DNA of 41,536 nucleotides from Ignavibacteriota bacterium. GTDB taxonomy: Bacteria; Bacteroidota; Ignavibacteria; UBA10030; UBA6906. The position numbers and the translations under genes were made by a program. The notes under the pieces are model-generated. The model had not been told where the DNA came from. It made no database searches and was given only the letters and a program-made list of their open reading frames with translations. Location of the stretch: assembly GCA_016218065.1 (NCBI GenBank), contig JACRFA010000285.1:1-41536 (forward strand). Reading direction: 5' to 3'. Shown piece by piece: positions 10,838 to 41,536 of this stretch; the stretch's first letter is position 1; every line of letters begins with the position of its first letter.

Positions 10838-11593
10838 CTATTGCTGGCGAATGAATTTTTGAACCCATCGCGTACCTTGTCGAACGTTGTTGCGTTTTGT
10901 ACTGCCAAAGCCGCTATCGGGAAGCGCTGCCGTCCAGCCAGTAACCGGCGGCGCCGTTTGTATGACTTCAAGCGAGAGTGTGTCGTTCACGACCCGATAG
11001 ATGCCGCGATAGGTAACGGCAGACGGCGCGGTTTGAAAGAGCGTGTCGCCGAAGATACGCGAGGAATTCGGTCCGGTCTTTTTGTACGTTCCGGCGTATT
11101 GCGTTGTTGTTCCGGCGCTGTCTGTGCTTTGCATCGTGTATGCGCCCTCCGGCGTGAAGTTTGCGAGAACTCGTCTCACCTTGAGCGAGTCCCACAGTCC
11201 GGGAGCTACTTGCAACTGACCTTCGGAGGCCCATGAAGAGACGATGGCGTTGAATGCCCTGAACGGAACGTCGGCAGTTTTGAATCCCTTCATCACAGAA
11301 ATCTTGATGTTGCCTTCCGCAGTGTTCACGGGAACTCGTGCGGTAATTTGCGTCGGCGTGATGGCATCGATCACAGCGCCGCTGCTTGCGTTGCCAAACA
11401 CGACGGCAATCTTTGTTTTGTCCGTTCCGAAATTTTCTCCCGTGATTGTCACGACGGTTCCTTCCCGGCCTAGCATGGGATTGACCGAAGAAACCTTCAC
11501 GTCGTACAGTGACGCGGCTGAGTTGTCTTCACTCTCACAACTCCAGAGAAGCGCGCAGAGCAACAACGCTCCCGCAAAAGCGATCTTTTTCAT
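10838..11593 (-). CDS. IPT/TIG-domain lipoprotein
   Basis: A 251-residue predicted lipoprotein. The N-terminus MKKIAFAGALLLCALLWSC is a lipoprotein signal with the lipobox LWSC. Residues of about 30-110 form an IPT/TIG (Ig-like, plexin/transcription factor) domain: VSSVNPMLGREGTVVTITGENFG, shown here in its key parts VNPMLGREG and ITGENFG, then TPTQITARVP. The second half is a beta-rich region with AYTMQSTDSAGTTTQY and IFGDTL, similar to lipocalin-like or copper-resistance-style barrels, but not assignable. The start at 11593 is chosen because it begins the lipoprotein signal; upstream in-frame codons precede it with no signal sequence. It is the first gene of the envelope operon, so the promoter should lie in 11594-12129. 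It may hold a partner at the outer membrane. Confidence 0.85.
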   Translation of the reverse strand: MKKIAFAGALLLCALLWSCESEDNSAASLYDVKVSSVNPMLGREGTVVTITGENFGTDKTKIAVVFGNASSGAVIDAITPTQITARVPVNTAEGNIKISVMKGFKTADVPFRAFNAIVSSWASEGQLQVAPGLWDSLKVRRVLANFTPEGAYTMQSTDSAGTTTQYAGTYKKTGPNSSRIFGDTLFQTAPSAVTYRGIYRVVNDTLSLEVIQTAPPVTGWTAALPDSGFGSTKRNNVRQGTRWVQKFIRQQ

Positions 11594-12675: not shown

Positions 12676-14861
12676 TATCTCGATACAGCTTTGCACTGCT
12701 TGGTCTCATACTATTGCACGAAATCGCGATGGCAGGCTCGCTCGCAGGAAAAGTGAGCGGCAAAGACGATAACCAGCCGCTCGCCGGAGTGAATGTCGTT
12801 CTTCAGGGTACAGTACGCGGGACGACGACAAATGCACAGGGCGAGTTCTTCATGACGAACATTCCGCCCGGCGTCTATGCCGTCGTCTTTTCGCTCGTGG
12901 GATATCAGCGCGAAATGCTAACGGGCGTTTTGATTGATGATGAGAACGATAAGCTTCTGAGCGTGCTGATGAGAGAATCGCCGCTTCAGACCGAGCAAAT
13001 TGTTGTTACGGCAAACAAGCGCGAGCAATCATTGATCGAAGTGCCCGTGAGTATCTCGGTGGTCGATGCTACAGAGATTCAACGGCGCAACACGCTGACG
13101 ATTGACGAAGCGCTGCGGTATGTTCCGGGCGTGAACATGACCGGCACACAGATCAACATTCGCGGTTCGAGCGGTTACAGTCTCGGCGCGGGAAGTCGTG
13201 TGCTCATGCTCCTCGACGGCATTCCCTTCATTGCCGGCGATACGGGCGAGCTGATCTTCGAGTCGATTCCTGCCGGGCAAGTTGATCGCATTGAAGTGGT
13301 GAAGGGCGCAAGCTCGGCGCTCTACGGATCGAACGCGCTCGGCGGCGTCATCAACATCATCACCAAACCCATCGGCGAAAAGCCGCTGACGCACATCCGA
13401 ACATACGGCGGCCTGTACAGCGAGCCTTCGTTCGATCAGTGGAAGTGGTCGGATAAGCGGCGCTACTTCAACGGGCAGTCGCTGACACTCACGCGAAAGC
13501 TTGGCGATCTCGGCTTCTCTGTTTTCCTCTCGCGTCAGTTCGATGACGGCTTCCGGCAGAACGATTACCGGCGCCGGTACAATCTCTACATCAAAGCACG
13601 CGAAGATTTTTCCGAGTCCAGCTCGCTCACGCTGAACGTCGGCGCACTGCATCAGGAGAGCGGACAATTCTTGTACTGGCGAAGTCTTGATTCAGCGCTC
13701 ATTCCGCCTCTGCGCCACATGACCGACAATCTCAAATCGACGCGCACTTATGTGAATGGCTTGTTCAACACCGTGTTGTCTGAGCGCATGTTGCTCACGC
13801 TCAAGGCGCTCTGGACTCACAGTACGTGGGGCTTTCAGCAGATGGGCGATCTCACGCGCACCGAATCGCTGAACGACGGCTTTCGCGTCGAAGCATCATC
13901 CGTGCTCATGCTCGACGACATGCACACACTCACGTTCGGGGTGGACGGGAATATCGATCTCATTCGCGGCGCGATGTTCGGGCAGCGAACGATCGGCGGG
14001 CTTGCGCTGTTCGCTCAGGACGAGGTTCGGTTCTCCGACCAGTTCACGCTGACACTTGGCGCGCGTAGTGATTTTCAATCCGTCGGACTCACATCGGGAA
14101 ACTCCGATATCAATCCGAAGATTGCGTTGACACATCGGCCATGGGAAGGGACCACGTTCCGCGCATCGTTCGGTACAGGATTCCGCGTTCCCTCGATTCC
14201 CGAAGCGTTCATTGCCGCAGGAGGCGGCTTGGTGAAGGGCGTGCCCAATACGGATCTCAAGCCGGAGATCAGCCTTTCATTCGAACTCGGCGCTTCGCAC
14301 ACACTCGGCACGCTGGGGACACTCGATGTTGCCGCGTTCAGATCCGACTTCAACAATCTGATTGAGCCGGGCTTGCTGATCTCGGGCCAGAATCTTTTTG
14401 TGCAGTGGAGAAACGTGGTCAAGGCACGCGTGCAGGGATACGAGACGTCCGTGAAGCTTGCATTCTTCGATGGTGATCTTCATACGAATGTCGGCTACAC
14501 ATACACTTTTCCGGAAGACAGGATCGCGAAGACGGTGCTCAAGTATCGGCCCCGGCACATTCTCTACACGAACGCGCAAGCACAAGTCGGATGGTTTAGC
14601 CTTGGAGTCGATTTCCGGTATGTGAGCCGCGTCGAGAGAATCGATCAGGAGCTTGTCGATGCGGGCATTGTCCCAGATGGCGATGAGCGCGACGCGATCT
14701 ACGTTGCAGATGCGCGAGTCGGCGGAGAATTCTCGATCAGCGACATAGCGTTCAGCGCCGGTCTGCATGTCAAAAACATCTTTCAGCACAACTACGTTGA
14801 GCTGCTCGGCAACATGATGCCGCCGCGAACGTTCGTGCTGACGCTCGAAGCAAGACTGTAA
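12666..14861 (+). CDS. TonB-dependent receptor
   Basis: A 731-residue outer-membrane receptor of the siderophore/cobalamin/sugar type. A short signal peptide ending near EIAMAG is followed by a carboxypeptidase-regulatory domain (LAGKVSGKDDNQPLAGVNV, GTTTNAQGEFFM), a TonB-box-like segment EQIVVTANKREQ, and a plug with INIRGSSGYSLGAGSRVLML, shown here as the key motifs RGSSGY and GSRVLMLLDG. Then come VDRIEVVKGASSALYGSNA and GGVINIITK, and a 22-strand-type barrel with FRASFGTGFRVPS and terminal FVLTLEARL. It overlaps the preceding lipoprotein gene by 10 nt. The plug sequence resembles that of BtuB/FecA-like receptors, but the substrate is not deducible. A bidirectional terminator follows about 30 bp downstream. 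Confidence 0.94.
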   Translation: MAIVSRYSFALLGLILLHEIAMAGSLAGKVSGKDDNQPLAGVNVVLQGTVRGTTTNAQGEFFMTNIPPGVYAVVFSLVGYQREMLTGVLIDDENDKLLSVLMRESPLQTEQIVVTANKREQSLIEVPVSISVVDATEIQRRNTLTIDEALRYVPGVNMTGTQINIRGSSGYSLGAGSRVLMLLDGIPFIAGDTGELIFESIPAGQVDRIEVVKGASSALYGSNALGGVINIITKPIGEKPLTHIRTYGGLYSEPSFDQWKWSDKRRYFNGQSLTLTRKLGDLGFSVFLSRQFDDGFRQNDYRRRYNLYIKAREDFSESSSLTLNVGALHQESGQFLYWRSLDSALIPPLRHMTDNLKSTRTYVNGLFNTVLSERMLLTLKALWTHSTWGFQQMGDLTRTESLNDGFRVEASSVLMLDDMHTLTFGVDGNIDLIRGAMFGQRTIGGLALFAQDEVRFSDQFTLTLGARSDFQSVGLTSGNSDINPKIALTHRPWEGTTFRASFGTGFRVPSIPEAFIAAGGGLVKGVPNTDLKPEISLSFELGASHTLGTLGTLDVAAFRSDFNNLIEPGLLISGQNLFVQWRNVVKARVQGYETSVKLAFFDGDLHTNVGYTYTFPEDRIAKTVLKYRPRHILYTNAQAQVGWFSLGVDFRYVSRVERIDQELVDAGIVPDGDERDAIYVADARVGGEFSISDIAFSAGLHVKNIFQHNYVELLGNMMPPRTFVLTLEARL

Positions 14862-14890
14862 TATCTTTGCGCGCAGCGTAGTTCGCACCA

Positions 14891-14927
14891 ACAAAAAACC
14901 CCCGCCGATTATCAGCGAGGGTTTTGT
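14891..14927. terminator. Bidirectional intrinsic terminator
   Basis: An imperfect GC-rich stem, ACAAAA...CCCCGC pairing with GCGAGGGTTTTGT, is flanked by A and T runs. It lies between the convergent TonB receptor (+) and FadL-like (-) genes. Confidence 0.8.
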
Positions 14928-14946
14928 CGTCTGTACAACTGTCGAC

Positions 14947-16443
14947 TTACGGCATCCACGACAGTGAGATGTGGTAGATGTTTTCATTGAGCTGGCTTGT
15001 GCTGCCGCTGTACTCCTGAGCAACGAGGTTTGGACTCAACGACGTTTGCCAGTTGTTGAAGGCGTGCTCGAACGCGCCATGAATCGCGAACGTTGGCGAG
15101 AGCTTGTACGTCAACCCTGCTGTGAAATGATTCTCCACGATTGCAGGGAACACAGGAAACACGGTCTCGTTGGGAACAGGATTTGTTCCGAACGCTCCGC
15201 CAACCCGAAGCGTCAGCACGCTCGACGGATCGACTTCAAAGCCAATGCGCGTAGTGTACGCATCTTCCCAGTTCATCGGGAAGTCAACATTCAAGCTTCC
15301 GCTGCTCCCCATCATCCGGTTGATGTTCACGTTGGCGCCGTTCTTCATGGAGATCGACATCTTGTCGAACGCATTCTTCCAGTTGATCCACTCGAAATCA
15401 AATCCCAACCGGAAACCATCGCTCAGATTAAACATCCCTCCGAAACCAACCGACTGGGGAAACTTCATCTTCACCTCAAGATCATAATCCGCAATGACGT
15501 CCTTCGACATGTCGATGCCGAGCGAGGTGAACATGCCTATCACGGCCTGTTGCGCTTGCGCCTGTGTCATGTTCGGATTTTGCGCCATCACGCCCATCAT
15601 CGCAAGGCCGAATGCATTATTGAGTTGATAGGTCATGTCCATGTGCGCTTTGCCATTCTTGTACGTCAACGAAGTCGGCGACGTGTAGCTGATACCAAAC
15701 GTCACGTTCTCATTTGGTTTCCAAGCAAGACCGGCTTTGCCTGAGAATCCCCACGCTTTCAACTCCTTCATCGCTGCTGCGGCAGTGACTTCCGAGTAGC
15801 CGAAGCCGCCCGCCTGTTGCGGCGCGGCAAACATATCGCCGAACGTCATCCCGTTCGTCGGGTTGACGACGCCCTTCATGATGGAGGGTGATAGACTGTA
15901 GGGCATGCTGAACTCGAGCATGCTGTACACAATATGCGCGCTTGCGCCGATGGAGAGATCCGGTCGGAGTTTGTACGCCGCGCTCACTCCGCCCTGCATC
16001 ACCGCCAACTTGGAATGATACTCCTGCTGCACGAACGCGCCGCTCTGATCGCGGAAGAGTTGATGATTTAGTTTGAAGTCTGCGCCCATGCCTCCCTGCG
16101 TGTACGCGCCAATGCCCCAGGCAAAGTTGCCGAACGTGTTGTTCACGTAACCAGCGTCGAAGAGCGGAAAGTAGTTTGTCTTTCCTTGTGATTGATTGAG
16201 ACCGTTTGCAAACTTGATTCCCGGCACCATCAGCGAAAAGGCTGCGTCGAGTTGTGTGCCTTGGATGAATGAGATGCCGGCGGGATTCGAAAACAGCAGC
16301 GATGTATTATCGAAGAAGCCGATAGAGCTTCCGCCGCGCCCGACGGTCTTTGCATCGAAGCCGATCATGCGTGTCCCGTTCGTGGCAAAGGACGACGAAA
16401 GGGCAATCGCGATCAGCGTAAAGACGAAGAGAAACCGTTTCAT
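14947..16443 (-). CDS. OmpP1/FadL family outer-membrane transporter
   Basis: A 498-residue barrel of the FadL/TodX family, which moves hydrophobic compounds such as fatty acids or aromatics across the outer membrane. The signal peptide MKRFLFVFTLIAIALSSS is cut near SFA. The mature N-terminus shows the family pattern (TVGRGGSSIGFFDNTSLLF, then SNPAGISF), equivalent to the hatch region with NPA. Many barrel strands follow, with a Met-rich, probably extracellular helical region (about residues 195-310, MGVMAQNPNMTQAQAQ), and the end YHISLSWMP. The start has AAGGA about 9 bp upstream. It stands alone between convergent and co-oriented neighbours. The family is secure and the substrate unknown. 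Confidence 0.92.
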   Translation of the reverse strand: MKRFLFVFTLIAIALSSSFATNGTRMIGFDAKTVGRGGSSIGFFDNTSLLFSNPAGISFIQGTQLDAAFSLMVPGIKFANGLNQSQGKTNYFPLFDAGYVNNTFGNFAWGIGAYTQGGMGADFKLNHQLFRDQSGAFVQQEYHSKLAVMQGGVSAAYKLRPDLSIGASAHIVYSMLEFSMPYSLSPSIMKGVVNPTNGMTFGDMFAAPQQAGGFGYSEVTAAAAMKELKAWGFSGKAGLAWKPNENVTFGISYTSPTSLTYKNGKAHMDMTYQLNNAFGLAMMGVMAQNPNMTQAQAQQAVIGMFTSLGIDMSKDVIADYDLEVKMKFPQSVGFGGMFNLSDGFRLGFDFEWINWKNAFDKMSISMKNGANVNINRMMGSSGSLNVDFPMNWEDAYTTRIGFEVDPSSVLTLRVGGAFGTNPVPNETVFPVFPAIVENHFTAGLTYKLSPTFAIHGAFEHAFNNWQTSLSPNLVAQEYSGSTSQLNENIYHISLSWMP

Positions 16444-28575: not shown

Positions 28576-28646
28576 GCTAAAAACACGAACCTCCCGACTG
28601 AGACAGTCGAGAGCGTTCGTGCTTCTCCGGCTGAAGCGTATTTTAG
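28576..28646. terminator. Bidirectional stem-loop between convergent genes
   Basis: Nested arms occur: GCTAAAA with TTTTAGC as the outer pair, CACGAAC with GTTCGTG inside, and CGACT with AGTCG at the tip. The structure spans the gap between the CDF (+) and NO reductase (-) genes and reaches into the last codons of the latter. Confidence 0.6.
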
Positions 28647-30856
28647 CTTCGAGTGGGTTTGCTGCTGATCTTCACGATGAACCACACGAACACGATTGCC
28701 CCAATCGCAAAGATCGTGTCGCCGAAGATGCGCGCCCACCGAAGATAGTTCATGACATTCGTCTGCATGAACTCCGAGCTGCGCGCATACCAGTAGCCGT
28801 ACTCCACCGATGCCCATGTCTGCATCAGTCCCACAGGCAACAGACTCAGCACGACCATCGCCAGGAGTCCGAAGTTGATCGACCAGAACGCGAACCGGAT
28901 CGGTTTCTCGTTCCATGTTGAGGCGGGCTTGAGCGCGCGGAGGCAGAACAACATCAAGCCAAGACCGAGCATGCCATACACTCCGAACAGCGCCGCATGT
29001 CCATGCACAGGCGTCGTATTCAATCCCTGCATGTAGTAAAGCGCAATCGGCGGATTGATCATGAACCCAAACAATCCGGCGCCGAGCAGATTCCAGAACG
29101 CGACAGACACGAAGAAGTAGATGGGCCATTTGTAATTTTGCACCCACTCCTTTGTCCGGGAAAGACGAATGTTCTCCCATGCTTCAAATCCAACAAACAC
29201 CAGGGGCACAACTTCCAATGCGCTGAACACGGAACCCAACGCAAGCACGACGGTCGGCGTACCGGTGAAGTAGAGATGATGCAGCGTGCCGATGATCCCT
29301 CCCGACAAAAAGATCGTGGACGAAAGCAAAGTCGCCTGACCCGCCGTTCGGAGGCTCACCAGTTTCAATCTCGCAAAGAGAAATGCAATTACCACGGTCG
29401 CGAACACTTCAAAGAAGCCTTCGACCCAGAGGTGGACAACCCACCAACGCCAGTACTCGACAATTGCGAGATTCGTGTGCCTGCCGTACATCAGTGCAGC
29501 GCCGTAGAACGCGGCGATGGCAATTGTGGAGATCAAGAAGAGTGTGAGGATGGGTTTCTGCTCGTCTTTCTTTCTCAGTGCAGGCAGCAGGCTTCGTACC
29601 ATCAAAAAGAGCCAGAGCAGCAATCCGATGAAAAGCGCGATTTGCCACAAGCGTCCGAGATCGATGTACTCATAGCCGCTGTGCCCGAGATAGAACCATG
29701 CGTCCCCGGAGAGCAATCCTTTTACGCTCAACCACTGTCCCGCCATCGAGCCAAGCACAACAACAAGCAACGCGCCGAACAGAATGTTCACGCCGAGCCG
29801 CTGTCCTTTCGGCTCGACGCCGCTCACGGCAGGCCCGGTGTACAACCCGCCTGCGAGCCACGCCGTTGCAATCCAGAAAATTCCAAGCTGCGTATGCCAC
29901 GTTCGCGCGATTGAGTATGGGAGTATCTCGGCGATCGGGATGCCGTAGAACGCATCTCCCTCAACACCATAATGCCCGGTGACAACGCCGAGCAAGATCT
30001 GAAGAAGGAACAAGCCGGTCACGGTCCAGAAATATTTCACAACGGCAACTTGTGATGGAGTCGGGTGAGCGCCGAGCAGGGGATCGCTTGCCGGAACATC
30101 GCCCGCCGGATGTTCGTGTTCTTGCGCGCCATAGTACCACGCCATGGCGCCAATGCCCGCAAGCAGCAGAATGATGCTCACGCCCGTCCACACGACCGCC
30201 TCGCCCGTCGGCCCGTTGGCAACAAGTTCTTCATGCGGCCAGTTGCTTGTGTACGTGAGATTGCGTCCCGGCCTGTTGGTCGACGCGGCCCACGAGCTCC
30301 AGAAATAGAACGCGGCAAGTTGTCTCAGTTTGGATGCATCGGTGAGCGTGTTCTCGTGAATCGCGTAATCAGATCGCCCCTTCGTAAATACATCGGCAAA
30401 GTGCGCCGCGTTCGCATTGAACGCCCGTACGCGAATCGGATCGATAGTCACAACACCGCTCGATGCGTTGTACGTATTCGTCCGCATCGTGCGTTGAAGT
30501 CGAGTGCGCAGCGCTGCCTGCTGTTCAGACGTTGCCTCTGCGTACGGACGCGAATGTTCTTGCTGCGACCATGCATCGAGAATGTACACCGCCTCGCGAT
30601 GCAGCCAGTCGGCTGTCCAATCCGGCGCGACGTAGCTTCCGTGTCCCCACACCGAGCCGACTTCCATTCCGCCCATTGCCTGCCAAACATTTTGTCCCTG
30701 CTGAATGTCTTCACGCGTCAGCATGACGGCGCCATCCGTCGTTACCACGCGCACGGGAATAGGCGGCGCTTCCTGATAAATCTCGACGCCGACCCACCCG
30801 AGCACAGCAAACGACAGAATAATGACCGCCGCAAAAGCAAACCAGTACTTCCTCAT
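28643..30856 (-). CDS. norB: Quinol-dependent nitric oxide reductase (qNOR)
   Basis: A 737-residue fusion of the NorC-like and NorB-like parts, typical of qNOR, which reduces two NO to N2O with electrons from quinol. After an N-terminal helix comes a periplasmic domain (GQNVWQAMGGMEVGSVWGHG, shown here as key motifs QQGQNVWQ and VWGHGSY), then about 12 helices. Probable ligands are the His in ARTWHTQLGIFW, the FeB-site His and Glu in VVHLWVEGFFEV, the pair in TLHHLYFTG and the haem His residues in VHGHAALFGVYG. It starts 11 bp after the ric gene and has AGGAG 8 bp upstream of its ATG. With its neighbours it forms an NO-defence operon. Complete denitrification is not implied. Confidence 0.94.
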   Translation of the reverse strand: MRKYWFAFAAVIILSFAVLGWVGVEIYQEAPPIPVRVVTTDGAVMLTREDIQQGQNVWQAMGGMEVGSVWGHGSYVAPDWTADWLHREAVYILDAWSQQEHSRPYAEATSEQQAALRTRLQRTMRTNTYNASSGVVTIDPIRVRAFNANAAHFADVFTKGRSDYAIHENTLTDASKLRQLAAFYFWSSWAASTNRPGRNLTYTSNWPHEELVANGPTGEAVVWTGVSIILLLAGIGAMAWYYGAQEHEHPAGDVPASDPLLGAHPTPSQVAVVKYFWTVTGLFLLQILLGVVTGHYGVEGDAFYGIPIAEILPYSIARTWHTQLGIFWIATAWLAGGLYTGPAVSGVEPKGQRLGVNILFGALLVVVLGSMAGQWLSVKGLLSGDAWFYLGHSGYEYIDLGRLWQIALFIGLLLWLFLMVRSLLPALRKKDEQKPILTLFLISTIAIAAFYGAALMYGRHTNLAIVEYWRWWVVHLWVEGFFEVFATVVIAFLFARLKLVSLRTAGQATLLSSTIFLSGGIIGTLHHLYFTGTPTVVLALGSVFSALEVVPLVFVGFEAWENIRLSRTKEWVQNYKWPIYFFVSVAFWNLLGAGLFGFMINPPIALYYMQGLNTTPVHGHAALFGVYGMLGLGLMLFCLRALKPASTWNEKPIRFAFWSINFGLLAMVVLSLLPVGLMQTWASVEYGYWYARSSEFMQTNVMNYLRWARIFGDTIFAIGAIVFVWFIVKISSKPTRS

Positions 30857-30867
30857 GCTCTCTCTCC

Positions 30868-31602
30868 TCAGTTGTTCATCGATAGAACCTTCGCTTCCAG
30901 CGCGAGTGATTTCGGGAAGAGAATGTTATTCTCAAGATGAATATGCTGATGTAAGTCTTTTTCAAAATCTTCAAGCTCTTTGTAAGATGTTCGGAACGTC
31001 GTACAGGCATCATCGGGCGGTGTGTACGATGCCGAAAGCGCCCTGATGCCGTACATCTCGTCTCCGGCGGATTCGTGCTCGGCTTCCATCATGCGGATTG
31101 GGTTTTGCGCTGACCCGAATGGTGGAGCGGAGATCATGAACTGCCGGTTCGATGCGTCAACCAGGTGTTTGATGTACGGGAAAAGGATGCGCTCCTCTTT
31201 CATCATGTGATGCTGAAGCTCATTCGCGACCACCGCAAACCTGCCGGCGATTGCCACAGCTTCCGGATGATTAGCGCCGTGAACGGATGAAACCTTTGCC
31301 GTGTGGGCCGCGAGAACGGGTATCGCGTTCCGCACATACGTATGATGCTTGAGAACAATGTAGTCGATGAGTTCGTCAAGCGGCAATGCATCGAATGAAA
31401 CTTCCGACTGATCAGCGACCGCCATCGCCTCGCCAAGATCGGCAAGCACTGTTTCGGCGTTGAGAGATTTTTCGCCGCATGCTTCGTCGATCGTCTTACC
31501 TCCTCTGCAGCAGAAATCGAGTGAGTATTTCTCGAACACGGCGGCAGCGCGAAAATTGTCGGTGACGATTTGTTTGAGTGTCAAAGCCCGTACGTCTGTC
31601 AT
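30868..31602 (-). CDS. ric: Iron-sulfur cluster repair di-iron protein (RIC/ScdA/YtfE)
   Basis: A 244-residue di-iron protein that helps repair FeS clusters damaged by NO or oxidants. The N-terminal ScdA domain shows SLDFCCRGGKTIDEAC. The hemerythrin-like four-helix part follows, with LKHHTYVRNAIPVL, HHMMKEERILFPYI, EAEHESAGDEM and HQHIHLENNILFPKSL providing His and Glu ligands. The start at 31602 is chosen because it overlaps the upstream regulator's stop by 4 nt (ATGA), while a longer reading would run across the regulator gene in another frame. It precedes norB by 11 bp. The gene pairing is typical for NO stress; the symbol follows general usage for the family. Confidence 0.94.
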   Translation of the reverse strand: MTDVRALTLKQIVTDNFRAAAVFEKYSLDFCCRGGKTIDEACGEKSLNAETVLADLGEAMAVADQSEVSFDALPLDELIDYIVLKHHTYVRNAIPVLAAHTAKVSSVHGANHPEAVAIAGRFAVVANELQHHMMKEERILFPYIKHLVDASNRQFMISAPPFGSAQNPIRMMEAEHESAGDEMYGIRALSASYTPPDDACTTFRTSYKELEDFEKDLHQHIHLENNILFPKSLALEAKVLSMNN

Positions 31603-32243
31603 GTAGCTCTTCCCTTCTTTTTGTTTTGATTGAAATATGATCTTGGATTTCCCCAGAGGATTTTTCCGTCGGAGGTCAGCCGAAGCTTCTCTCCCTGCTC
31701 CATTGCCTTGATACACCGAATCACCGTTTCCACGCGCAGCCCGGTCATGTCCGCAAGCTGTTGACGGGTAAACGGAACCTGATACACCTCCGCCTTCGCG
31801 TTGGTTTCCTTTCGGAAGTACTCGATGAGCGTTGTGAGTCGATGTTCCGCCTCCTCGATTGCAAGCTCGGTGAGCATGATCGATTTGTACACTAATCTTC
31901 CGCTCAAGACTTGCGTCAGCGCGAGGTGTATGTCGAAATTCTCTTTCAGCAATTTTAGAAATGCGGTGTGCGGACATCTCCACACTTCGCTCGCGACAAC
32001 CGCGATTGCCGAGGCAGGATAGGGCAGGCGGTTAAAGAGTGGCGGTTCGCCGAAACTTTGCCCTTCCGTGAAGTAGCCCTGTACGAATTCTTTCCCATCG
32101 CGGCTGTACGTCGCCATTTTGATTTTCCCCGACTTGACCAGATGAAAATATGTGGCCATATCGCCTTCATGAAAGAGCGCTTCATTCTTTTTCAGATTCG
32201 ACAGCCGGGCGTCGTATTTTCGTAAGATTGATTCAGGTATCAT
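31599..32243 (-). CDS. Crp/Fnr family regulator, probably NO-responsive
   Basis: A 214-residue regulator with an N-terminal cyclic-nucleotide-binding-type domain (FHEGDMATYFHLVKSGKIKM, then GQSFGEPPLF) and a C-terminal winged helix with recognition region FTRQQLADMTGLRVETVIRC. It lacks the N-terminal Cys set that holds the [4Fe-4S] cluster of FNR; the two Cys residues are isolated. That makes it more like the DNR/NnrR branch, whose members respond to NO through haem, but this is inference. It heads the operon with ric (4-nt overlap) and norB, so self-activation in response to NO is plausible. There is no clear Shine-Dalgarno at the ATG. Confidence 0.88.
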   Translation of the reverse strand: MIPESILRKYDARLSNLKKNEALFHEGDMATYFHLVKSGKIKMATYSRDGKEFVQGYFTEGQSFGEPPLFNRLPYPASAIAVVASEVWRCPHTAFLKLLKENFDIHLALTQVLSGRLVYKSIMLTELAIEEAEHRLTTLIEYFRKETNAKAEVYQVPFTRQQLADMTGLRVETVIRCIKAMEQGEKLRLTSDGKILWGNPRSYFNQNKKKGRAT

Positions 32244-32559
32244 GACAGATGAATTGTATTCGATATTGGTGAGAGATGTTTATGAGGTAAGTCATAACGG
32301 GCCATAGCTGCCCATCAAAACTCTCGAAGGGCGTGCTTTGTTCCCGTCCGACCCGCAGAGCGAGAACTCCTCTGTTCAGGGGTTGACCTCCTGAAGCATC
32401 AACAACAGGATGGCTTGAAGCTGATAGTTTTGGCAGGAATCGGAATTGATGTTCATCTGTTGGTCGGGACTCCCGTCCCGACTACGGTGGTTTCTCCGGC
32501 GTCAGGTCGCAGACCCAAACAACAAGTTGCAGAGCGACACAAATCGGCAAGAGCATCGA
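32244..32559. other. Intergenic region upstream of the NO operon
   Basis: This 316-bp gap should contain the promoter of the Crp/Fnr-led operon, reading leftward. No gene is seen. It includes the perfect hairpin at 32463-32482. I searched by eye for a TTGAT-N4-ATCAA box of the DNR/FNR type and found none convincing. Confidence 0.5.
32463..32482. repeat. GTCGGGAC hairpin
   Basis: A perfect palindrome, GTCGGGAC-TCCC-GTCCCGAC, 8-bp arms with a 4-nt loop. It is of the REP-like type found between genes in many bacteria. It may end transcription from the PepSY gene or be a repeat copy. Confidence 0.65.
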
Positions 32560-33120
32560 TCACGACAAATACTGATACCAAATCCAGTAGCCTACTGGAA
32601 TGACAATCCCGATTAACGTGAGCCACCAGCCGCGCCCGGAAATCCCGTTCCTTCCTTTCAACACAAACAGTCCCGTGATTGCAATGATGATCAGCGAGCC
32701 GGCATACAGATCGGCGATGTAGGTCCAGGCGCCTTTGGGTGTATTGAGATGAAGTTGATTCATTTCATACAACACAGGACGATGATGGACTCTCTCGATC
32801 AACACCTTGCCGGTCGGAACGTCGACCGTGTACGTGCGCCTCTCAAAAAACATTTGCAGCGTCTCCGGGTCGGGCCGAAACACGTTGCGCGGCGTTTCGG
32901 TAATCTCCAGCTTCTGCAGTGCTTCGGCGAACATTGCTTCGCGCTCGGTCGCTGCGATGGGCGCGATCTCACGCACTTGTTTCTCCTGACGGTAGCTCGG
33001 ATTCCAGTCGGCTGTATGGTTCACCGCGATTCCTGAAACGCCATAAATCAATGTCAGCCCTACAACCAAATAGCCAATGTCTCTGTGAAGAATGTTGTTC
33101 CACTTACGCCACTTAATCAA
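32560..33120 (-). CDS. PepSY-associated membrane protein
   Basis: A 186-residue membrane protein. An N-terminal helix (IGYLVVGLTLIYGVSGIAVNH) is followed by a periplasmic PepSY-like domain (about residues 50-130, ALQKLEITETPRNVFRPD, YTVDVPTGKVLIERVHHRP) and two further helices near the end, each beginning LYAGSLIIIAITGLFVL and GWWLTLIGIVIPVGYWIWY. HRDIGYLVVGL and HLNTPKGAWTYIADLYAG match PepSY-TM proteins, which are linked to membrane redox or iron reduction. The start is a TTG at 33120, with AAAGGAG 6 bp upstream and no nearby ATG that would keep the first helix. The gene is probably monocistronic. Function uncertain. Confidence 0.85.
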   Translation of the reverse strand: MIKWRKWNNILHRDIGYLVVGLTLIYGVSGIAVNHTADWNPSYRQEKQVREIAPIAATEREAMFAEALQKLEITETPRNVFRPDPETLQMFFERRTYTVDVPTGKVLIERVHHRPVLYEMNQLHLNTPKGAWTYIADLYAGSLIIIAITGLFVLKGRNGISGRGWWLTLIGIVIPVGYWIWYQYLS

Positions 33121-33499
33121 ATGATGCTCCTTTCGTGAGAGTGCTTCTTGCTGGAAAAATCGTAACGCCAGTTGAGTCGATGCGAGGATTGGTTCGCAGA
33201 TGGAATGAGATTCCGACCGTGTTCAATATACGGAGCTTCCTGTTTTTATGAAATCGGAAGGTCAGGTTAGGCTGACGAGTTCCCGACGTAAAAAGGAATA
33301 GGAACGCGGTCTATGACCCGCAGAGATGACGCGAGTTCAGTGGAGGTGCTACGGATGGTTTCTGGGAACATACTTCCTATACGAAGCGTTAGCCCAGTTT
33401 AGAACAGACTAAGGTGGACACTTATCAATGACATGCTGAGAATACAGTAGATGTGCAGGCGCTGAAGTGAGCGGTTGAGTATTGCTTTGGAAAACATTC
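33121..33499. other. Intergenic region, no recognisable feature
   Basis: The gap of about 380 bp lies between divergent genes, so promoters for both are expected. A CTTCC/GGAAG dyad at about 33238-33266 is the only structure noticed. No gene, repeat or terminator is convincing. Confidence 0.4.
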
Positions 33500-33850
33500 A
33501 TGGGGTCCGTCATGATTAGTACAGTATCCGGCATTCTCCTTTATGTGTTCGGCCTTATCCTCGTAAACGAGAGTCTGCATCATCCGGTCAATACGTCCAC
33601 GCTCTACGATGCCTCCATCTTTCAGGTAGGAGGAATACTGATTGCGGGCGGCGTGTACCTTTCGGTGATTCATCGGTCCCGGAAGCGGTTTTTCCGGCGG
33701 GCTTCAGAGAGGAAGCGACTTTCCGCCCCGAACAGCAGTTCGTTGCAGTTGGGATCAGGCCAATCAAGCCAGTTTGGATTTCCTCTCAGCCAGCCCGGAT
33801 TTACCGAAATTGGGGTACTTCAACCCAAAACGGGAAAAGATATTACTTGA
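33500..33850 (+). CDS. Small predicted membrane protein, hypothetical
   Basis: A 116-residue frame whose first half looks like a real two-helix membrane protein (STVSGILLYVFGLILV and FQVGGILIAGGVYLSV, with a basic RKRFFRRASERKR tail). The second half is low-complexity, Ser/Gln-rich (SSLQLGSGQSSQFGFP) and looks non-coding, so the frame may have drifted from a shorter ancestral gene. The ATG at 33500 is one of several possible starts (33482 TTG, 33512 ATG). I do not recognise the family. It lies beside a long non-coding leader region. Confidence 0.45.
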   Translation: MGSVMISTVSGILLYVFGLILVNESLHHPVNTSTLYDASIFQVGGILIAGGVYLSVIHRSRKRFFRRASERKRLSAPNSSSLQLGSGQSSQFGFPLSQPGFTEIGVLQPKTGKDIT

Positions 33851-34234
33851 CATCGTTCCCTCCTTGTCCGTATATTTGCGTCAGCTTTACTAGTATTCTT
33901 TGCGTTCTTACTCAATTGCTTTGGTCTGGGCTGTCACCGATGTGCGAGCATTCTGGTGGTCGGGCTGTCCAGCACTCCTATCAATTCTGACAGCCCCGCC
34001 TCTCTTCACCTCAATGAGTGAATTCTCTCCCTACTCATTTCGTTGATAGTGAGCCAAAACTAGGTCAAGGTCCCGACCAATTCGACCGATAACAAGCGTA
34101 AGCGCTGGTCTTCTCCGGTATGTATGTTCTCGAAGAAAGGCGCGCCAGGTCGAATCTGAAGCGAGACCATGAACGCGGCTTGCCTCACAAGCCCGGCCCG
34201 GTGCTTGGCCTGTGACAAAGACATACTGAATGAA

Positions 34235-34298
34235 TTGTTCGTTCAATTGGAGGCGCTAAACCTCACACGCGTGAGGTTCGAAAGCGCCTCTTTTTTTT
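34235..34298 (+). terminator. Intrinsic terminator element A
   Basis: The sequence TTGTTCGTTCAATTGGAGGCGCT is followed by a perfect nested hairpin. The outer stem is GAGGCGCT (34250-34257) with AGCGCCTC (34283-34290), the inner stem AACCTCAC with GTGAGGTT, and the loop ACGC. Eight T residues follow (34291-34298). It is among the strongest terminators in the window and shares its 5' sequence with element B. Confidence 0.9.
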
Positions 34299-34384
34299 GT
34301 AGTCAGTAGAATTTTTTTTGAGGTGCAATACACAAGCACTGCATGATGTTCGCGTCAGGCTTGTGATGAAGGGATAGCAGTAGA

Positions 34385-34447
34385 ACTGTTCGTTTTGATT
34401 GGAGGGCGCTTGGGATCTCGGCAGAGACCCTGTTGCGCCCTTTTTTT
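34385..34447 (+). terminator. Intrinsic terminator element B
   Basis: ACTGTTCGTTTTGATTGGAGGGCGCT is followed by outer stem AGGGCGC (34403-34409) with GCGCCCT (34435-34441), and inner stem GGGATCTC with GAGACCC (one bulge), loop GGCA. Seven T residues follow. The start codon of the giant gene lies about 60 bp downstream. Its 5' part matches element A (TGTTCGTT-N2-5-ATTGGAGG-GCGCT). Confidence 0.85.
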
Positions 34448-34506
34448 GTGGCGGATGAGTCGCCTATGTGCGCTCATACATTTTCAGTTTCACGAGAGGT
34501 GGTACT

Positions 34507-37500
34507 ATGAAAGGATATCTCACGGTTTCCAGACATCTGATTGCAGTTCTCATCGCTTCTGTAGTCACGCCAGCAACTTCCTTGAGCCAATCACTGATTT
34601 CCAATCCAGGATTCGAAAACGGAACGTCGTCATGGGAGTTCTACACAAATGGCGGTGGAACGTTCACGACTGAGATCCAGAGCGACAACAGGGTTGGCAA
34701 GGTCTCCATTTCAAAAGCAGGCTCAAATACTCAGTTGTACCAAACGGGCATTGTTCTCGAAGCCGGAAAGCGCTACCGACTCACGTTCCGCGCGTACTCG
34801 AATACGGGCCATGACGTTCTGCTGTACATTCATAAACATGGTCCGCCCTACTCGTCATACGGACTTGATGGAGCAACTGCTGATCTCACGACTGCATGGG
34901 CATCGCACTCCTTCGAGTTCACTGCATCAGGATTCACCGGCATCAGAAGCGATGGGCGATTCAGGATCTGGTTGGCCTCCACTGCAGTGAAGAACGACAT
35001 GTTCTACTTCGACGACTTTGTCCTCACGTCAGCAACTGCGACCGCGCCAACAATCACAACCCAACCGACCAGCATTTCTGTCGCGGAAGGACAAACTGCT
35101 AGTTTTACCGTCGCGGCAAGCGGCACCGCACCGCTCTCGTACCAATGGCAGAAGAACGGCGCTAGTATCTCCGGCGCAACGGTTTCAACGCATGCAACTT
35201 CTCCAACAACTCTCGCCGACAGCGGCTCGACTTTTCGATGTGTTGTCTCGAACAGCGCCGGAACGATCACGAGCGCTGCTGCAATATTGAGTGTCACAGG
35301 CCGGGCACCCATCATTCTCGTTCAGCCGACAGATCAAACTACGAACGAAGGGGCGAGCGCGACATTCACGATCAGCGCATCAGGCACGCCCCCGTTGTTG
35401 TTTCAATGGCAAAAAAACGACGCGCCGATCACAGGCGCGGCAGATTCAGTGTATCACACGCCGCCTGCTTCGCTCGCCGATAGCGGCGCGGCATTCGCGT
35501 GCATCCTCTCCAATTCCGCCGGGACAATTACGAGCACGACTGCACGCCTGCATGTCCGTGGCAATCCTCCCACAATCACGACGCAGCCTCTCAGTCAGAT
35601 CATTCACGTGAGCAGCCCGGTACATTTCGCTGTGACGGCGGAAGGTTCAGGCTTGCTGAGCTTTCAGTGGCAGAGAGACGGGATGAACATTCCGGGCGCA
35701 ACGAGTTCATCATTCGACTTGCTTGCTGCGACACTCGCGGACAGCGGCGCTCAATTCCGCTGCATCGCTGCGAACTCGTTTGGCAGCGACACGAGCGAGA
35801 GCGCAATACTGCGAGCACTCGAACCGCTGATCATTCTCCTCCAACCTCATGATACAGTCGCCACGGCTGGGGACAGCGTCACGTTTTCAGTGGGCGTACA
35901 AGGATCAGGTCCACTCGCGTTCAGATGGGAAAAAAACAATCAGCCGATCAGTGGAGCAACATTCGATTCGCTCACACTGCAAGCCATCACACTCGCAGAT
36001 GACAACGCTGCGTTCCGGTGCATCATCACAAACCCGATTGATACCATCGTGAGTCGTTCAGCGTTGCTGAGACTTGCTTCTCCTCCTCACATCGTCGCTC
36101 ATCCAGAAAATATCACGACCGCTGTTGGAAGGTCAGCGACGTTCTCCATAATCGCCGCGGGAAGCCGCCCGTTCTCATATCAATGGGTGAAGAACGATAC
36201 TCTGCTGAGCAGTCAAACTGATTCTATTCTGTTCCTCCAAACTGTATCGAGAGAAGACAGCGGCGCAACATTTCGATGTATTGTGAGAAATTCTGTCGGC
36301 GCAGATACTAGCGACGCCGGCCTACTGCGCGTGCTGACCCCTGCGCTCATCCTTTCTCAACCCGCCGACCAATCAGTACATGAAGGCGACACTGCGGCAT
36401 TCCATGCCGAGGCTAACGGATCGGAACCGGTGCTGTATCAATGGCAGAAAGATGGAGTAACCATCGCGGGCGCGACGGAAGATTCGCTTCTCGTGTACGG
36501 AACCTTGAGTGCAGACGGATCGCGCTATCGGTGTATCGCGAGCAATGCAGTGGGCAGCGACACAAGCCGCAGCGCGCTACTTGCCGTCTTGCCGATTCCA
36601 CCCAGAATTACTCTGCATCCGGCAAACCAGAATGTGTTGGAAGGCGGAACGGCAAGATTCTCTGTTTCCGCATCGGGAACCCCGCCTCTTCAATATCAAT
36701 GGCTGAAGAATGATTCTGTGTTGATCGGCTCACAAGATAGCTTTCTTGTTGTCACCAATGCTGCGCTATCAGATAGCGGCTCGACATACAGATGTGTTGT
36801 TTCAAATGCTTCAAGCTCGGACACAAGCGCGGCTGCAATCTTAAGTGTACGCGGCATTCCCCCAACAATTCTAGTTCACCCGCTGGATCAAACAGTCATC
36901 GAGGATAGCGCCGCTACATTCATGGTCACTGCCACAGGCTCGTTGCCGCTTGCATATCAGTGGCAGCGCAACGGAGTTGATATTGTCGGAGCGATAGATT
37001 CATTGCTGCGGTTGAACGCTGTTTCAAACACTGACAGCGGCTCCGTCTTTCGTTGTCTTGTTCGGAATAGGTTCGGGGCCGACACGAGCGGCGCTGCCCG
37101 GCTTACAGTTCTCAATCCACCGATCATACTCGAACACCCGATCAGCCAAACGTCTGCGCTTGGGGGTGCCGTCACATTCAGAGTCCGCGCGAGCGGCTCT
37201 GAGCCGCTTGGCTATCAATGGCAGCGCAACAATCAAACCATCATGGGAGCCGTCGACTCGGTACTTACTCTTCCGTCTGTTTCTGCCGATGACGACAGTG
37301 CCAGCTTCAGGTGCATCGTCTCCAACGCGATTGGAACTGCAACAAGTTCAAGCGCTTTGCTCCGCGTCAACACTCCTGTTCTCATCATCGCTCAGCCACA
37401 GGACCAGACACTCGCCGTCGGGCAGTCGGTAACATTCACTGTAGCGGCACAAGGAACGCTGCCGTTCGTTTATGTTTGGGAGAGAAATGGTTCGCCGATT

Positions 37501-40500
37501 CCTGGCGCGTCCGACTCTTTTTACAGAATCGCTTCAGTATCGATGACAGATAGTGGAGCAACGTTCCGTTGTCTCGTGCGAAATTCAGTCGGCGCCGACA
37601 CGAGTGAAGAAGCGCACTTAAACGTTCTCGTTCCTCCACAGATCACAAGTCAACCTGCGAGTCATCACGCTCAGGAGGGACAGTCAGCGACTTTCAGCGT
37701 TAGCGCAAGCGGCTCTGCACCATTACTCTATCAGTGGCAGAAGAATGAGGCAAACCTCACGAATGCAGATTCTTCAACGCTCAATATAGCAGTTACAGCG
37801 CTTGCAGACAGTGGATCAAGATATCGATGCATAGTCGCAAACCCGGTCGGTCGCGACACGAGCAACATCGCGATTCTACATGTCACGGGCATTGCGCCTT
37901 CGATTGTCTCGCATCCCGAACATCGCACTGTTCAGGAAGGAGACTCGGCATCGTTCGGCGTCGCGGCGTCGGGAACATTGCCTCTGACATACAGTTGGAT
38001 GAAAAACGGAGTTGCGCTTCCCGGGTTGAATGACAGCGTGATTGTTCTTCAGCAAGCTGCGCTTTCGGACAGCGGATCGAGCATGAGATGTATCGTGTCG
38101 AATCCGTATGGACGAGACACAAGCGACGTCGCTGTGCTCACGGTTCTGCCGGCTCCACCACGAATTTTGGTTCAGCCGACTACGCAAACGGCTGCCGAGG
38201 GCGACACGGCGAGGTTTTCCATACAAGTAATCGGCTCATCGCCGTTCGCGTATCAATGGAAACGAAACGGCGCAAACATCGACGGCGCGATCGCTCCGAC
38301 ATTGCTGCTCTACGTTCAACGCTCCGATAGCGGCAGTGTCTTCAGTTGCACAGTCAGTAATCGGGCTGGGGTCGTTCAGAGCGACCCTGCGTTGCTCCAC
38401 GTCCTTCCTCGAAAGCCGCTCATCACTATGCATCCAATGAATGTGATGGCGCGAGAAGGAGACACGGTGAACTTTTCTGTTCGGGCGACAGGATCCGAAC
38501 CGCTCGAGTATGTGTGGCAGAAGAACGGCGCAAACATCTTGGGAGCAAACGACACGCTGCTGTTCGTTCGCGGCATAGCGCTCTCCGACAACGGCTCGCT
38601 CTTCCGCTGCATTGTTCGAAATAGCGCGGGCGCTGACACGAGCGCGGCGGCGATGCTAACGGTACAGGGAATTGCGCCGCTGATTTCGATCCATCCATCC
38701 GATCAATCGGTTGCAGAAGGAGAGCGCGCCACTTTCACTGTAACGGCAGTGGGCAGTTCACCGCTGGCATATCGATGGCAGAAGGATCAGACCAATATCA
38801 TCGGCGCCACGGATACTGTGTACATGATTCAAGCGTCATCTCTCGCCGATTCCGGCTCAGCGTATCGTTGTCTCGTTACCAATGCGTTCGGAACCGACAC
38901 GAGCAGATCGGCGCGACTTATCGTTCACGGGAATCCTCCGACCATCACCGTACAGCCCACAAGCATAGTTGTTGCCGACGGGGATTCAGCGACATTTTCC
39001 GTCCGCGCAACCGGTTCAGGAGTTGTGCAATTCACCTGGCTAAAAAACGGCGCCCCAATTTCAGGAGCTACCGACTCTGCGTACAGAATCTTGTCAGCCA
39101 CGTGCGGCGATAGCGGTTCAGTCTTTCGATGCGTCGTCGCAAACACATACGGAATTATCGTTAGCGACAGCGCGACACTTAGTGTTATTCCCAGACCTCC
39201 GTCAATAACATCGCAGCCGGCGAGCGTGACAGTCTTCGAAACTCAAACTGCAATATTCACCATCGCTGCAACGGGAACGCTTCCTCTGCACTTTCAGTGG
39301 CGCAAAGACTCGACAGACATCGCGGGCGCAACAAGTCAGTCTTACACAACGCCAACAGTATCGCGCAACGATAGCGGCAAAGTTTTCCGATGTGTTGTTT
39401 CGAACATCGCCGGAAGCGTGACAAGCACGCCGGCAATACTTTCCGTTGTTGCGGCAACACCGGTCATCGTCATTGAGCCGCGAGACACGTCGGTGATTGA
39501 GGAGCAGACCGCGAACTTCTCCGTTGTCGCAGCCGGCTCTGGTCCATTCAGCTATCAGTGGCAACGTGACAGGGCAACTATCACGGGCGCGACAGATAGC
39601 ACGTATGTTCTCAGCGTGACGTCGATGCTCGACAATCAGGTGAAGTTCAGATGCCTTGTCGCAAATGCATCGGGCGCAGACACAAGTCGGGAAGCAACAT
39701 TGACTGTTGTCGGCAGGCCGCCGACGATTGTTTTGCATCCGCAATCGCGAACGGTTAATGATGGCCAACCGGCCGTCTTCACAGTATCTGCTTTCGGAAC
39801 CCGCCCCTTCTCGTACCAGTGGCAACGAAACGAACTCATCATCTCGCAAGCAACCGACTCTCTGTACCTGATAGCCTCGGCAACGATGGCAGACAGCGGC
39901 GCGATGTTCCGCTGTGTTGTCACTAATGTCGCCGGTACCGTGATGAGTGATTCTGCGATCTTGAGCGTGAATGCGAATCCACCTTCCATCGCGCAACAGC
40001 CTACAGATCAAATTGTGAACGAAGGAGGGAGCGCGGCGTTCACCGTGACCGCTACCGGCACAAGGCCGATCTCATACCAATGGGTGAAAAATGGAACGGC
40101 CATTAGCGGGAGAACAGACTCAGCATACCACATGTCCGCAACGTCGCTCGCTGATAGCGGCGCAGCATTCTACTGTATAGCAAGCAACTCCGCCGGGAGC
40201 GATACAAGCCGCGTTGTTCGTTTGCATGTTCGTGGAGTCGCGCCTACTATCACAGTCGAACCAAGGAATCAAGTCGTCCGATTGGGAAGTCCTGCAGCGT
40301 TTCGGATTGAAGCAACTGGTTCAGGCGTGATAACATATCAGTGGAAGCGAAACGGCCTTGATATTACGGGAGCGACAAGCTCCACCTTTACTATCGCATC
40401 GGTGGCCATGGGCGACAGTGGTGTGAGTTTCACTTGCATCGCGAGCAGCCCGTATGGCAGAGATACAAGTTCAGCCGCCGTTCTTAAAGTCCTGCCTCTC

Positions 40501-41536
40501 GTGAAGATCATGCTAGTCGGCGATTCGATAACCGAGTGGGGCTGTTGGCGGCGATTGCTCTGGCTCCGGCTCCGGCAGAATGGCTTCACCAACATCAACT
40601 ACGTTGGCAGTATGACTACAGGAGGCTGCGGATTAGATTTCGATCCCGACCATGAGGGACATGGAGGATGGACAGCCGATGGCACAGTTCGGGAGGGGCA
40701 TTTCAGATCGTGGATGAACGCGCAACATCCGGACGTGATGGTCTATTTGATGGGGACTAACGACGTGGGTTGGGTTGGCGCTAATCCCACCGGACCTATC
40801 TTCTACGCGTACCCTCAGACAATTGCGCAAGCCCGCGAGGTCAATCCGAACATCAAGATCCTCTTTGCATTGCTGACGCCGCGCACTCAGGGTGGATCGA
40901 TTCCAGCGCAAAATGTCGTCACGTTGAATGCCGCAATCCCGGGACTCATTGCCTCGCTTAACACAACGCAGTCGCCCATCACGCTTATCGATCAGTTCAA
41001 CGGATTCAATCCTGCAACCGATACCGACGACGGCTTGCATCCGAACGCTTCGGGAAATCAAAAGATCAGCGATAAGTGGTATCCGGGTCTCGCGGCAGTG
41101 CTTGCGATTTCCGACACCGGAGCGCCCCTCATCGTCTCTCATCCTGTCGAGCAGACAATTCTGGACGGCGATTCAGCGACATTCACTCTGTCTGCCATCG
41201 GATCAATCCCATTGACTTATCAATGGCAAAAGAACGGCATTAATGTTCCTGGGGCAATCATTTCCTCCTATACGACGCCATCGATGTCAGTAAGTGACAG
41301 TGGCAGTTCATTCCGGTGCATCGTGACGAACTCCTGCGGCACAACAATAAGCAACTCAGTAGTGCTGCATGTGAGACGTTTTCCGCCATCGATTACGCAA
41401 CAACCATCAAACAAGACTGTGCAGGTTGGTCAGTTAGCGGTGTTTGCAGTCTCGGCAACTGGCAGCCAGCCGCTTTCTTATCAATGGAAACGAAACGGGT
41501 CGGCCATCACCGGCGCCACGGTTTCTTCATATACGG
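34507..41536 (+). CDS. Giant surface protein: CBM-like domain, Ig-like repeats and SGNH esterase, incomplete at window end
   Basis: An uninterrupted frame of over 2,340 codons that runs off the end. A signal peptide (MKGYLTVSRHLIAVLIAS...) ends near residue 28, followed by a carbohydrate-binding-like beta-sandwich (residues about 29-177, NPGFENGTSSWEFYTNG). From residue 179 to about 1996 come 21 Ig-like domains of about 87 residues, each beginning PP-I--QP and carrying YQWQKNG, then DSG--FRC and N--G. Each has a single Cys in the FRC position. Residues from about 1999-2200 form an SGNH/GDSL hydrolase domain (LVGDSITEW, MGTNDVG, DGLHPNASG: the Ser, Asn and Asp-His blocks), like acetyl-xylan or rhamnogalacturonan acetyl esterases. 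Two more Ig-like domains follow before the edge. The ATG has AGGTGG 6 bp upstream. It probably degrades and grips plant polysaccharide at the cell surface. Confidence 0.93.
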   Translation, partial: MKGYLTVSRHLIAVLIASVVTPATSLSQSLISNPGFENGTSSWEFYTNGGGTFTTEIQSDNRVGKVSISKAGSNTQLYQTGIVLEAGKRYRLTFRAYSNTGHDVLLYIHKHGPPYSSYGLDGATADLTTAWASHSFEFTASGFTGIRSDGRFRIWLASTAVKNDMFYFDDFVLTSATATAPTITTQPTSISVAEGQTASFTVAASGTAPLSYQWQKNGASISGATVSTHATSPTTLADSGSTFRCVVSNSAGTITSAAAILSVTGRAPIILVQPTDQTTNEGASATFTISASGTPPLLFQWQKNDAPITGAADSVYHTPPASLADSGAAFACILSNSAGTITSTTARLHVRGNPPTITTQPLSQIIHVSSPVHFAVTAEGSGLLSFQWQRDGMNIPGATSSSFDLLAATLADSGAQFRCIAANSFGSDTSESAILRALEPLIILLQPHDTVATAGDSVTFSVGVQGSGPLAFRWEKNNQPISGATFDSLTLQAITLADDNAAFRCIITNPIDTIVSRSALLRLASPPHIVAHPENITTAVGRSATFSIIAAGSRPFSYQWVKNDTLLSSQTDSILFLQTVSREDSGATFRCIVRNSVGADTSDAGLLRVLTPALILSQPADQSVHEGDTAAFHAEANGSEPVLYQWQKDGVTIAGATEDSLLVYGTLSADGSRYRCIASNAVGSDTSRSALLAVLPIPPRITLHPANQNVLEGGTARFSVSASGTPPLQYQWLKNDSVLIGSQDSFLVVTNAALSDSGSTYRCVVSNASSSDTSAAAILSVRGIPPTILVHPLDQTVIEDSAATFMVTATGSLPLAYQWQRNGVDIVGAIDSLLRLNAVSNTDSGSVFRCLVRNRFGADTSGAARLTVLNPPIILEHPISQTSALGGAVTFRVRASGSEPLGYQWQRNNQTIMGAVDSVLTLPSVSADDDSASFRCIVSNAIGTATSSSALLRVNTPVLIIAQPQDQTLAVGQSVTFTVAAQGTLPFVYVWERNGSPIPGASDSFYRIASVSMTDSGATFRCLVRNSVGADTSEEAHLNVLVPPQITSQPASHHAQEGQSATFSVSASGSAPLLYQWQKNEANLTNADSSTLNIAVTALADSGSRYRCIVANPVGRDTSNIAILHVTGIAPSIVSHPEHRTVQEGDSASFGVAASGTLPLTYSWMKNGVALPGLNDSVIVLQQAALSDSGSSMRCIVSNPYGRDTSDVAVLTVLPAPPRILVQPTTQTAAEGDTARFSIQVIGSSPFAYQWKRNGANIDGAIAPTLLLYVQRSDSGSVFSCTVSNRAGVVQSDPALLHVLPRKPLITMHPMNVMAREGDTVNFSVRATGSEPLEYVWQKNGANILGANDTLLFVRGIALSDNGSLFRCIVRNSAGADTSAAAMLTVQGIAPLISIHPSDQSVAEGERATFTVTAVGSSPLAYRWQKDQTNIIGATDTVYMIQASSLADSGSAYRCLVTNAFGTDTSRSARLIVHGNPPTITVQPTSIVVADGDSATFSVRATGSGVVQFTWLKNGAPISGATDSAYRILSATCGDSGSVFRCVVANTYGIIVSDSATLSVIPRPPSITSQPASVTVFETQTAIFTIAATGTLPLHFQWRKDSTDIAGATSQSYTTPTVSRNDSGKVFRCVVSNIAGSVTSTPAILSVVAATPVIVIEPRDTSVIEEQTANFSVVAAGSGPFSYQWQRDRATITGATDSTYVLSVTSMLDNQVKFRCLVANASGADTSREATLTVVGRPPTIVLHPQSRTVNDGQPAVFTVSAFGTRPFSYQWQRNELIISQATDSLYLIASATMADSGAMFRCVVTNVAGTVMSDSAILSVNANPPSIAQQPTDQIVNEGGSAAFTVTATGTRPISYQWVKNGTAISGRTDSAYHMSATSLADSGAAFYCIASNSAGSDTSRVVRLHVRGVAPTITVEPRNQVVRLGSPAAFRIEATGSGVITYQWKRNGLDITGATSSTFTIASVAMGDSGVSFTCIASSPYGRDTSSAAVLKVLPLVKIMLVGDSITEWGCWRRLLWLRLRQNGFTNINYVGSMTTGGCGLDFDPDHEGHGGWTADGTVREGHFRSWMNAQHPDVMVYLMGTNDVGWVGANPTGPIFYAYPQTIAQAREVNPNIKILFALLTPRTQGGSIPAQNVVTLNAAIPGLIASLNTTQSPITLIDQFNGFNPATDTDDGLHPNASGNQKISDKWYPGLAAVLAISDTGAPLIVSHPVEQTILDGDSATFTLSAIGSIPLTYQWQKNGINVPGAIISSYTTPSMSVSDSGSSFRCIVTNSCGTTISNSVVLHVRRFPPSITQQPSNKTVQVGQLAVFAVSATGSQPLSYQWKRNGSAITGATVSSYT

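Follow-up and report, generated by a model that had tools for sequence, protein, structure and literature searches.

Why should a gene for a giant exported protein be preceded by two terminator-like hairpins that both face it? The question is raised by a 41,536-nt stretch of DNA from Ignavibacteriota bacterium (assembly GCA_016218065.1, contig JACRFA010000285.1, forward strand; the whole stretch is referred to here as the window), in which two related elements, A and B, lie in tandem just ahead of such a gene. Judging from sequence comparisons and folding, we consider it somewhat probable that A and B are paralogous leader terminators arranged in series, of a design that recurs before genes for exported and outer-membrane proteins.

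A first-pass annotation of the window had reported two related elements in tandem at this place, each a nested hairpin followed by a T run, and this description proved accurate. Both elements face the giant gene, their boxes (sequence TGTTCGTT) are 151 nt apart, and the two-tier hairpins are followed by eight Ts in A and seven in B (Table 1). In each hairpin an internal loop separates the outer from the inner stem. The minimum free energy is -27.1 kcal/mol for terminator A and -26.3 kcal/mol for terminator B, values equalled by 0/200 dinucleotide shuffles in either case. With a stable GC-rich hairpin and an immediate T tract, both are predicted to be intrinsic (Rho-independent) terminators, and the start codon of the giant gene lies ∼60 nt beyond the end of the T tract of B. 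By eye, the box itself may sit in a small hairpin with the loop TGTTC in both units (window 34231-34246 and 34382-34395); its arms read TGAAT/GTTCA in A and AGAAC/GTTTT in B, with one double change.

The similarity between A and B is longer than first noted, running from CACAAGC, 5' of the interval annotated initially, to the T tract. Local alignment of 34185-34298 with 34330-34450 gave a score that was reached by none of 2,000 shuffles, and the same was observed for the 5' part alone, upstream of the terminator hairpin (0/2,000). The hairpin part alone showed marginal similarity (80/2,000 shuffles reached its score), and the flanks outside the units are dissimilar on either side. Each unit of ∼115 to 121 nt begins with a common 5' hairpin, in which CACAAGC pairs with GCYTGTG apart from one mismatch in A, and carries GTGANNAAGNNATA in its linker. 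By alignment, A and B are paralogous copies of one larger unit. The first-pass annotation had also stated that the stems differ and nevertheless pair fully, as would be expected of compensatory change. Pairing holds except for one bulged A in the inner stem of B, and compensation is partly supported, from two sequences only. One inserted G-C pair accounts for most of the difference between the outer stems, and no sequence relationship links the inner stems, so that a conserved shape describes the pair better than pair-by-pair compensation does. A coding origin of the shared 5' part was considered and rejected: open frames exist in A and B, yet the changes, as read from the sequence, do not favor third codon positions.

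Where transcription of the giant gene is likely to begin bears directly on the role of the two terminators. The promoter predicted at 33847 is the best-scoring site of the intergenic interval 33121-34507, where 0/300 shuffles did as well, and the only strong one in the region 33120-34507; it lies ∼310 to 340 bp upstream of unit A. It fits the promoter form of this genome, since TTGAC-17/19-TAnnnT is sense-skewed upstream of genes (38 sense versus 15 antisense). A consensus scan found no good promoter between terminator B and the giant gene, the best site there being poor. With the sole strong predicted promoter upstream of both, terminators A and B thus most likely sit inside a leader of ∼0.6 kb, each of them, as in a leader attenuator, between the predicted promoter and the start codon. 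The nearest called upstream gene is divergent and >1.1 kb away. Early in the predicted leader, GGGCTGTC occurs twice (33928 and 33962), and either copy can pair with the single TGACAGCCC at 33988-33996, giving two competing hairpins (window 33928-33996).

Table 1. Predicted features of the leader region and the gene downstream (window coordinates)
Feature	Position	Strand	Description	Basis
Open reading frame (ORF)	33500..33850	+	doubtful orphan, 116 amino acids	ORF list
Promoter	33847..33878	+	TTGACA-18-TATATTTG	11/12 consensus matches
Unit A	34185..34298	+	5' hairpin (CACAAGC...GCCTGTG), linker, box TGTTCGTT, two-tier terminator hairpin, T8	alignment, folding
Box of unit A	34236..34243	+	TGTTCGTT	5 nt ahead of hairpin
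Intrinsic terminator A	34249..34298	+	hairpin 34249-34291 (outer stem 9 bp, inner 8 bp, tetraloop), T8	folding
Unit B	34330..34450	+	5' hairpin (CACAAGC...GCTTGTG), linker, box TGTTCGTT, two-tier terminator hairpin, T7	alignment, folding
Box of unit B	34387..34394	+	TGTTCGTT	6-7 nt ahead of hairpin
Intrinsic terminator B	34401..34447	+	two-tier hairpin 34401-34441 (outer stem 9 pairs, inner stem, tetraloop), T7	folding
Giant exported-protein gene	34507..41536	+	signal peptide, CBM_4_9, ∼23 Ig domains, GDSL lipase; runs off contig	domain search

Close relatives of the two units appear to be confined to this locus. The first-pass annotation could not match the elements to a known riboswitch class, and in agreement with this the Rfam 15 covariance models yielded nothing at gathering score. 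A covariance model built from the A/B pair (R1) gave strong matches in this genome to the two units alone, with a third, weak match on contig C143 (E = 0.08), and recovered no copy in 97 other genomes of the order. Weak matches of this model in ∼390 genomes of the class looked chance-like on inspection, and exact and gapped motif matches in 60 relatives, viral contigs and 85,000 species were attributable to chance, nearly all of them lying in coding sequence. The absence of other copies, which the first-pass annotation had named as a ground for refutation, is only half borne out: no close copy was found in the genome, in the ∼390 class genomes, in viral contigs or among the 85,000 species, but several other exported-protein genes of this genome are preceded by looser copies built to the same design.

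These looser copies emerged from a design screen of leader terminators that covered 1.67 Mb, about one-third of one draft genome. In this design, to which the window elements conform, a box TGTT(C/A)NTT stands ∼6 nt ahead of a two-tier hairpin that measures ∼40 nt and is followed by a T tract. Its copies share this layout, not their sequence: the box-to-hairpin spacing is 5 to 7 nt in most of them (9 in the C18 copy), and the hairpins, at 38 to 42 nt, are longer than the gene-end terminators of the same sample, whose median is 28 nt. On contig C1, signal-peptide genes are preceded by at least 11 such hairpins in all, grouped into arrays that have up to three members at intervals of ∼150 bp. 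Single copies precede a TonB-dependent outer-membrane protein gene on C48 and the gene of an FG-GAP/CBM/Por_Secre_tail protein on C18, and the weak match on C143 turned out to be a terminator before a signal-peptide M28 peptidase gene whose upstream neighbor is divergent. Read by eye, 10 of the 11 downstream genes have a signal peptide at their start; a crude signal-peptide rule, applied to crude gene calls, found one in 9/11 of them against 27% of genes (p = 2e-4), the lower count being due to one frameshifted C1 gene. The downstream genes of the set are predicted to encode exported proteins, with a single exception discussed below, and four of the C1 and C18 products carry a type IX sorting domain, which as a general rule points to an organism of the wider Bacteroidota group. 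As a positive control, the screen recovered a terminator in the leader of a gene that, judged by eye, is pyrR-like (L114 18694-18723, minus strand); the pyrR leader is a known setting of attenuation.

Counts against controls support the design as well. In this genome the box-spacing-T-tract pattern was counted 15 times, against none in the reversed control; two genomes of the same genus gave 4 and 5 occurrences (controls 0 and 1), and the rest of the family was near control level. A box was followed by such a hairpin in 8 of 392 cases, compared with 14 of 11,537 for 40 permuted boxes. These counts include the near-duplicates on C1; with about five independent lineages, the enrichment is genuine, if modest. 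The best reading of the sequence data is a species-restricted set of tandem leader terminators, probably attenuators, on genes for exported proteins.

Contig C1 showed further peculiarities. A dispersed three-way palindromic repeat, TTGTTGG[TCGAGAC...GTCTCGA][GGCGATTC...GAATCGCC]CAACAA, is present there (L077, L094), and was also seen on C46, C68, C245, C247, C130 and C316 and in the relatives G001 and G027; it is in tandem on C68, 66 bp apart, and within coding sequence in G027. This palindrome was tried as a sensor domain of the C1 arrays and ruled out, because it is dispersed over many other places, including the interior of genes in relatives. Two genes of L077 are disrupted: a stop interrupts an M1-peptidase-like gene whose product carries a type IX sorting domain (13395-16070, minus strand), and the MKTLLRF gene near 11332 contains a frameshift; either assembly error or decay could explain this.

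Several observations weigh against leader attenuation of exported-protein genes. A similar box and hairpin on C83 precede a pheS-like gene (named by eye from its N-terminus), whose product is not exported. Because the copies on C1 are near-duplicates, about five independent lineages are left (window, C1, C48, C143 and C18), which reduces the box statistic to a modest one; the design screen extended to only about a third of the genome. Most pattern matches in the same-genus genomes were not member-like on inspection, and the design is not clearly present there. Homologues of the N-domain of the giant gene, in this genome and the family, are mostly without leader terminators. Finally, in A, B and six further copies alike, the terminator 5' arm paired with the sequence upstream no more than it did after that sequence had been shuffled. 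An antiterminator fold sequestering this arm had looked good in single foldings and was ruled out by these shuffles. That criterion concerns attenuators of the RNA-switch type only and says nothing against control driven by a protein or the ribosome. In the absence of an antiterminator fold, control, if any, would more likely depend on a protein, on the ribosome or on modification of the polymerase.

If A and B are indeed leader terminators in series, transcription would start at the promoter near 33847, and polymerase would travel ∼0.4 kb before reaching terminator A and next terminator B, ahead of the giant gene. Only polymerases that pass both would yield giant-gene mRNA, and two terminators in series would lower the fraction that arrives there. 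Termination in the cell and its regulated relief by read-through are both presumed in this scheme. Given its nearly constant spacing from the hairpin, the box would be the likeliest site for a factor to act. A constant damping of costly exported proteins is a possible alternative role for the same arrangement.

The first-pass annotation had left the choice between attenuators and the ends of two small RNAs. Leader attenuators are the better supported of these, and no separate promoter was found before either unit. We nevertheless considered two tandem small-RNA genes, each unit being a transcript of ∼115 to 121 nt with its own promoter and acting in trans or as a decoy. The duplicated part spans the 5' hairpin to the T tract between unrelated flanks, just as such a gene would, but a scan for sigma-70-like consensus sites showed none of quality just before unit A or unit B, and the other hairpins of the design are not isolated elements but lie near the start codons of genes for exported proteins, which makes this account decidedly improbable. 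Somewhat less improbable, though still unlikely, is a spread or duplication of unregulated terminator hairpins that merely shield the gene from transcription arriving from upstream; the mobile attenuators of PMC2965389 would be a parallel. That the copies before the giant gene are paralogues, and that on C1 such units multiply together with dispersed palindromic repeats, would fit this idea. Copying alone, however, would not be expected to leave box spacing and hairpin size constant while the hairpin sequences differ among lineages, and with the best predicted promoter upstream of the hairpins, the insulated gene would be silenced.

Two further accounts appear very hard to sustain. The ORF at 33500-33850 is the only same-strand ORF directly upstream, so that A and B might simply end its transcript; it stops 335 bp before unit A, however, whereas gene-end terminators here usually lie within ∼60 bp, and it has no Pfam match, is not called as coding (its coding signal is weak) and has no relative in 20 genomes. 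We give equally little credence to the box being part of a promoter, namely the second half of a -10 element, with the hairpin stabilizing the mRNA 5' end. The fixed short distance between box and hairpin would suit such a role, as would one C1 copy that reads TATATTTG overlapping the box. Yet no -35 hexamer is found at the right distance, the downstream copies in arrays follow a palindromic repeat rather than an AT-rich stretch, and the T8 and T7 tracts after the window hairpins are better explained by terminators. Elsewhere in the window, consecutive minus-strand genes at 28643-33120 encode the nitric-oxide reductase NorB, a hemerythrin/ScdA-type protein and a PepSY membrane protein.

Premature intrinsic terminators in 5' untranslated regions are a known kind of transcription attenuator, and some rimP leaders carry a second tandem terminator (PMC2965389). 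From the attenuators in that survey, the present case differs in having two paralogous units, further copies before exported-protein genes and no evident antiterminator fold. The Salmonella mgtCBR leader likewise holds two attenuators in series, but these use two different leader ORFs and signals (PMC3641672), whereas A and B are copies of each other without a convincing leader peptide. In its compactness, a conserved element joined to a terminator hairpin, the unit resembles the terminator-embedded riboswitch of the HMP-PP class (PMC6478431); unlike that class, it has no Rfam match, precedes genes for exported proteins and not thiamin genes, and varies freely in hairpin sequence. Processive antitermination of the LoaP/UpxY type (PMC12691694, PMC7819879) would offer a possible way through serial terminators into a very long gene; no such protein or RNA site turned up here, and none was searched for. 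Leader terminators and tandem attenuators are thus already known, and what differs here, as far as the sequences tell, is that the units are copied from one another and recur before exported-protein genes of one species. In the limited open literature that we searched, no description of serial leader terminators on exported-protein genes was found.

A more far-reaching version of the attenuator reading, which we regard as speculative and rather doubtful, is a dedicated regulon in which a factor recognizes the TGTTCNTT box and sets read-through of the serial leader terminators, so that one signal would jointly tune type IX-secreted and outer-membrane proteins in this lineage. The repeated copies within one genome provide a ready set for testing control of read-through by the box. 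If leader attenuation holds, the serial terminators would act at the level of transcription to hold back costly secreted proteins in a lineage that uses type IX secretion.
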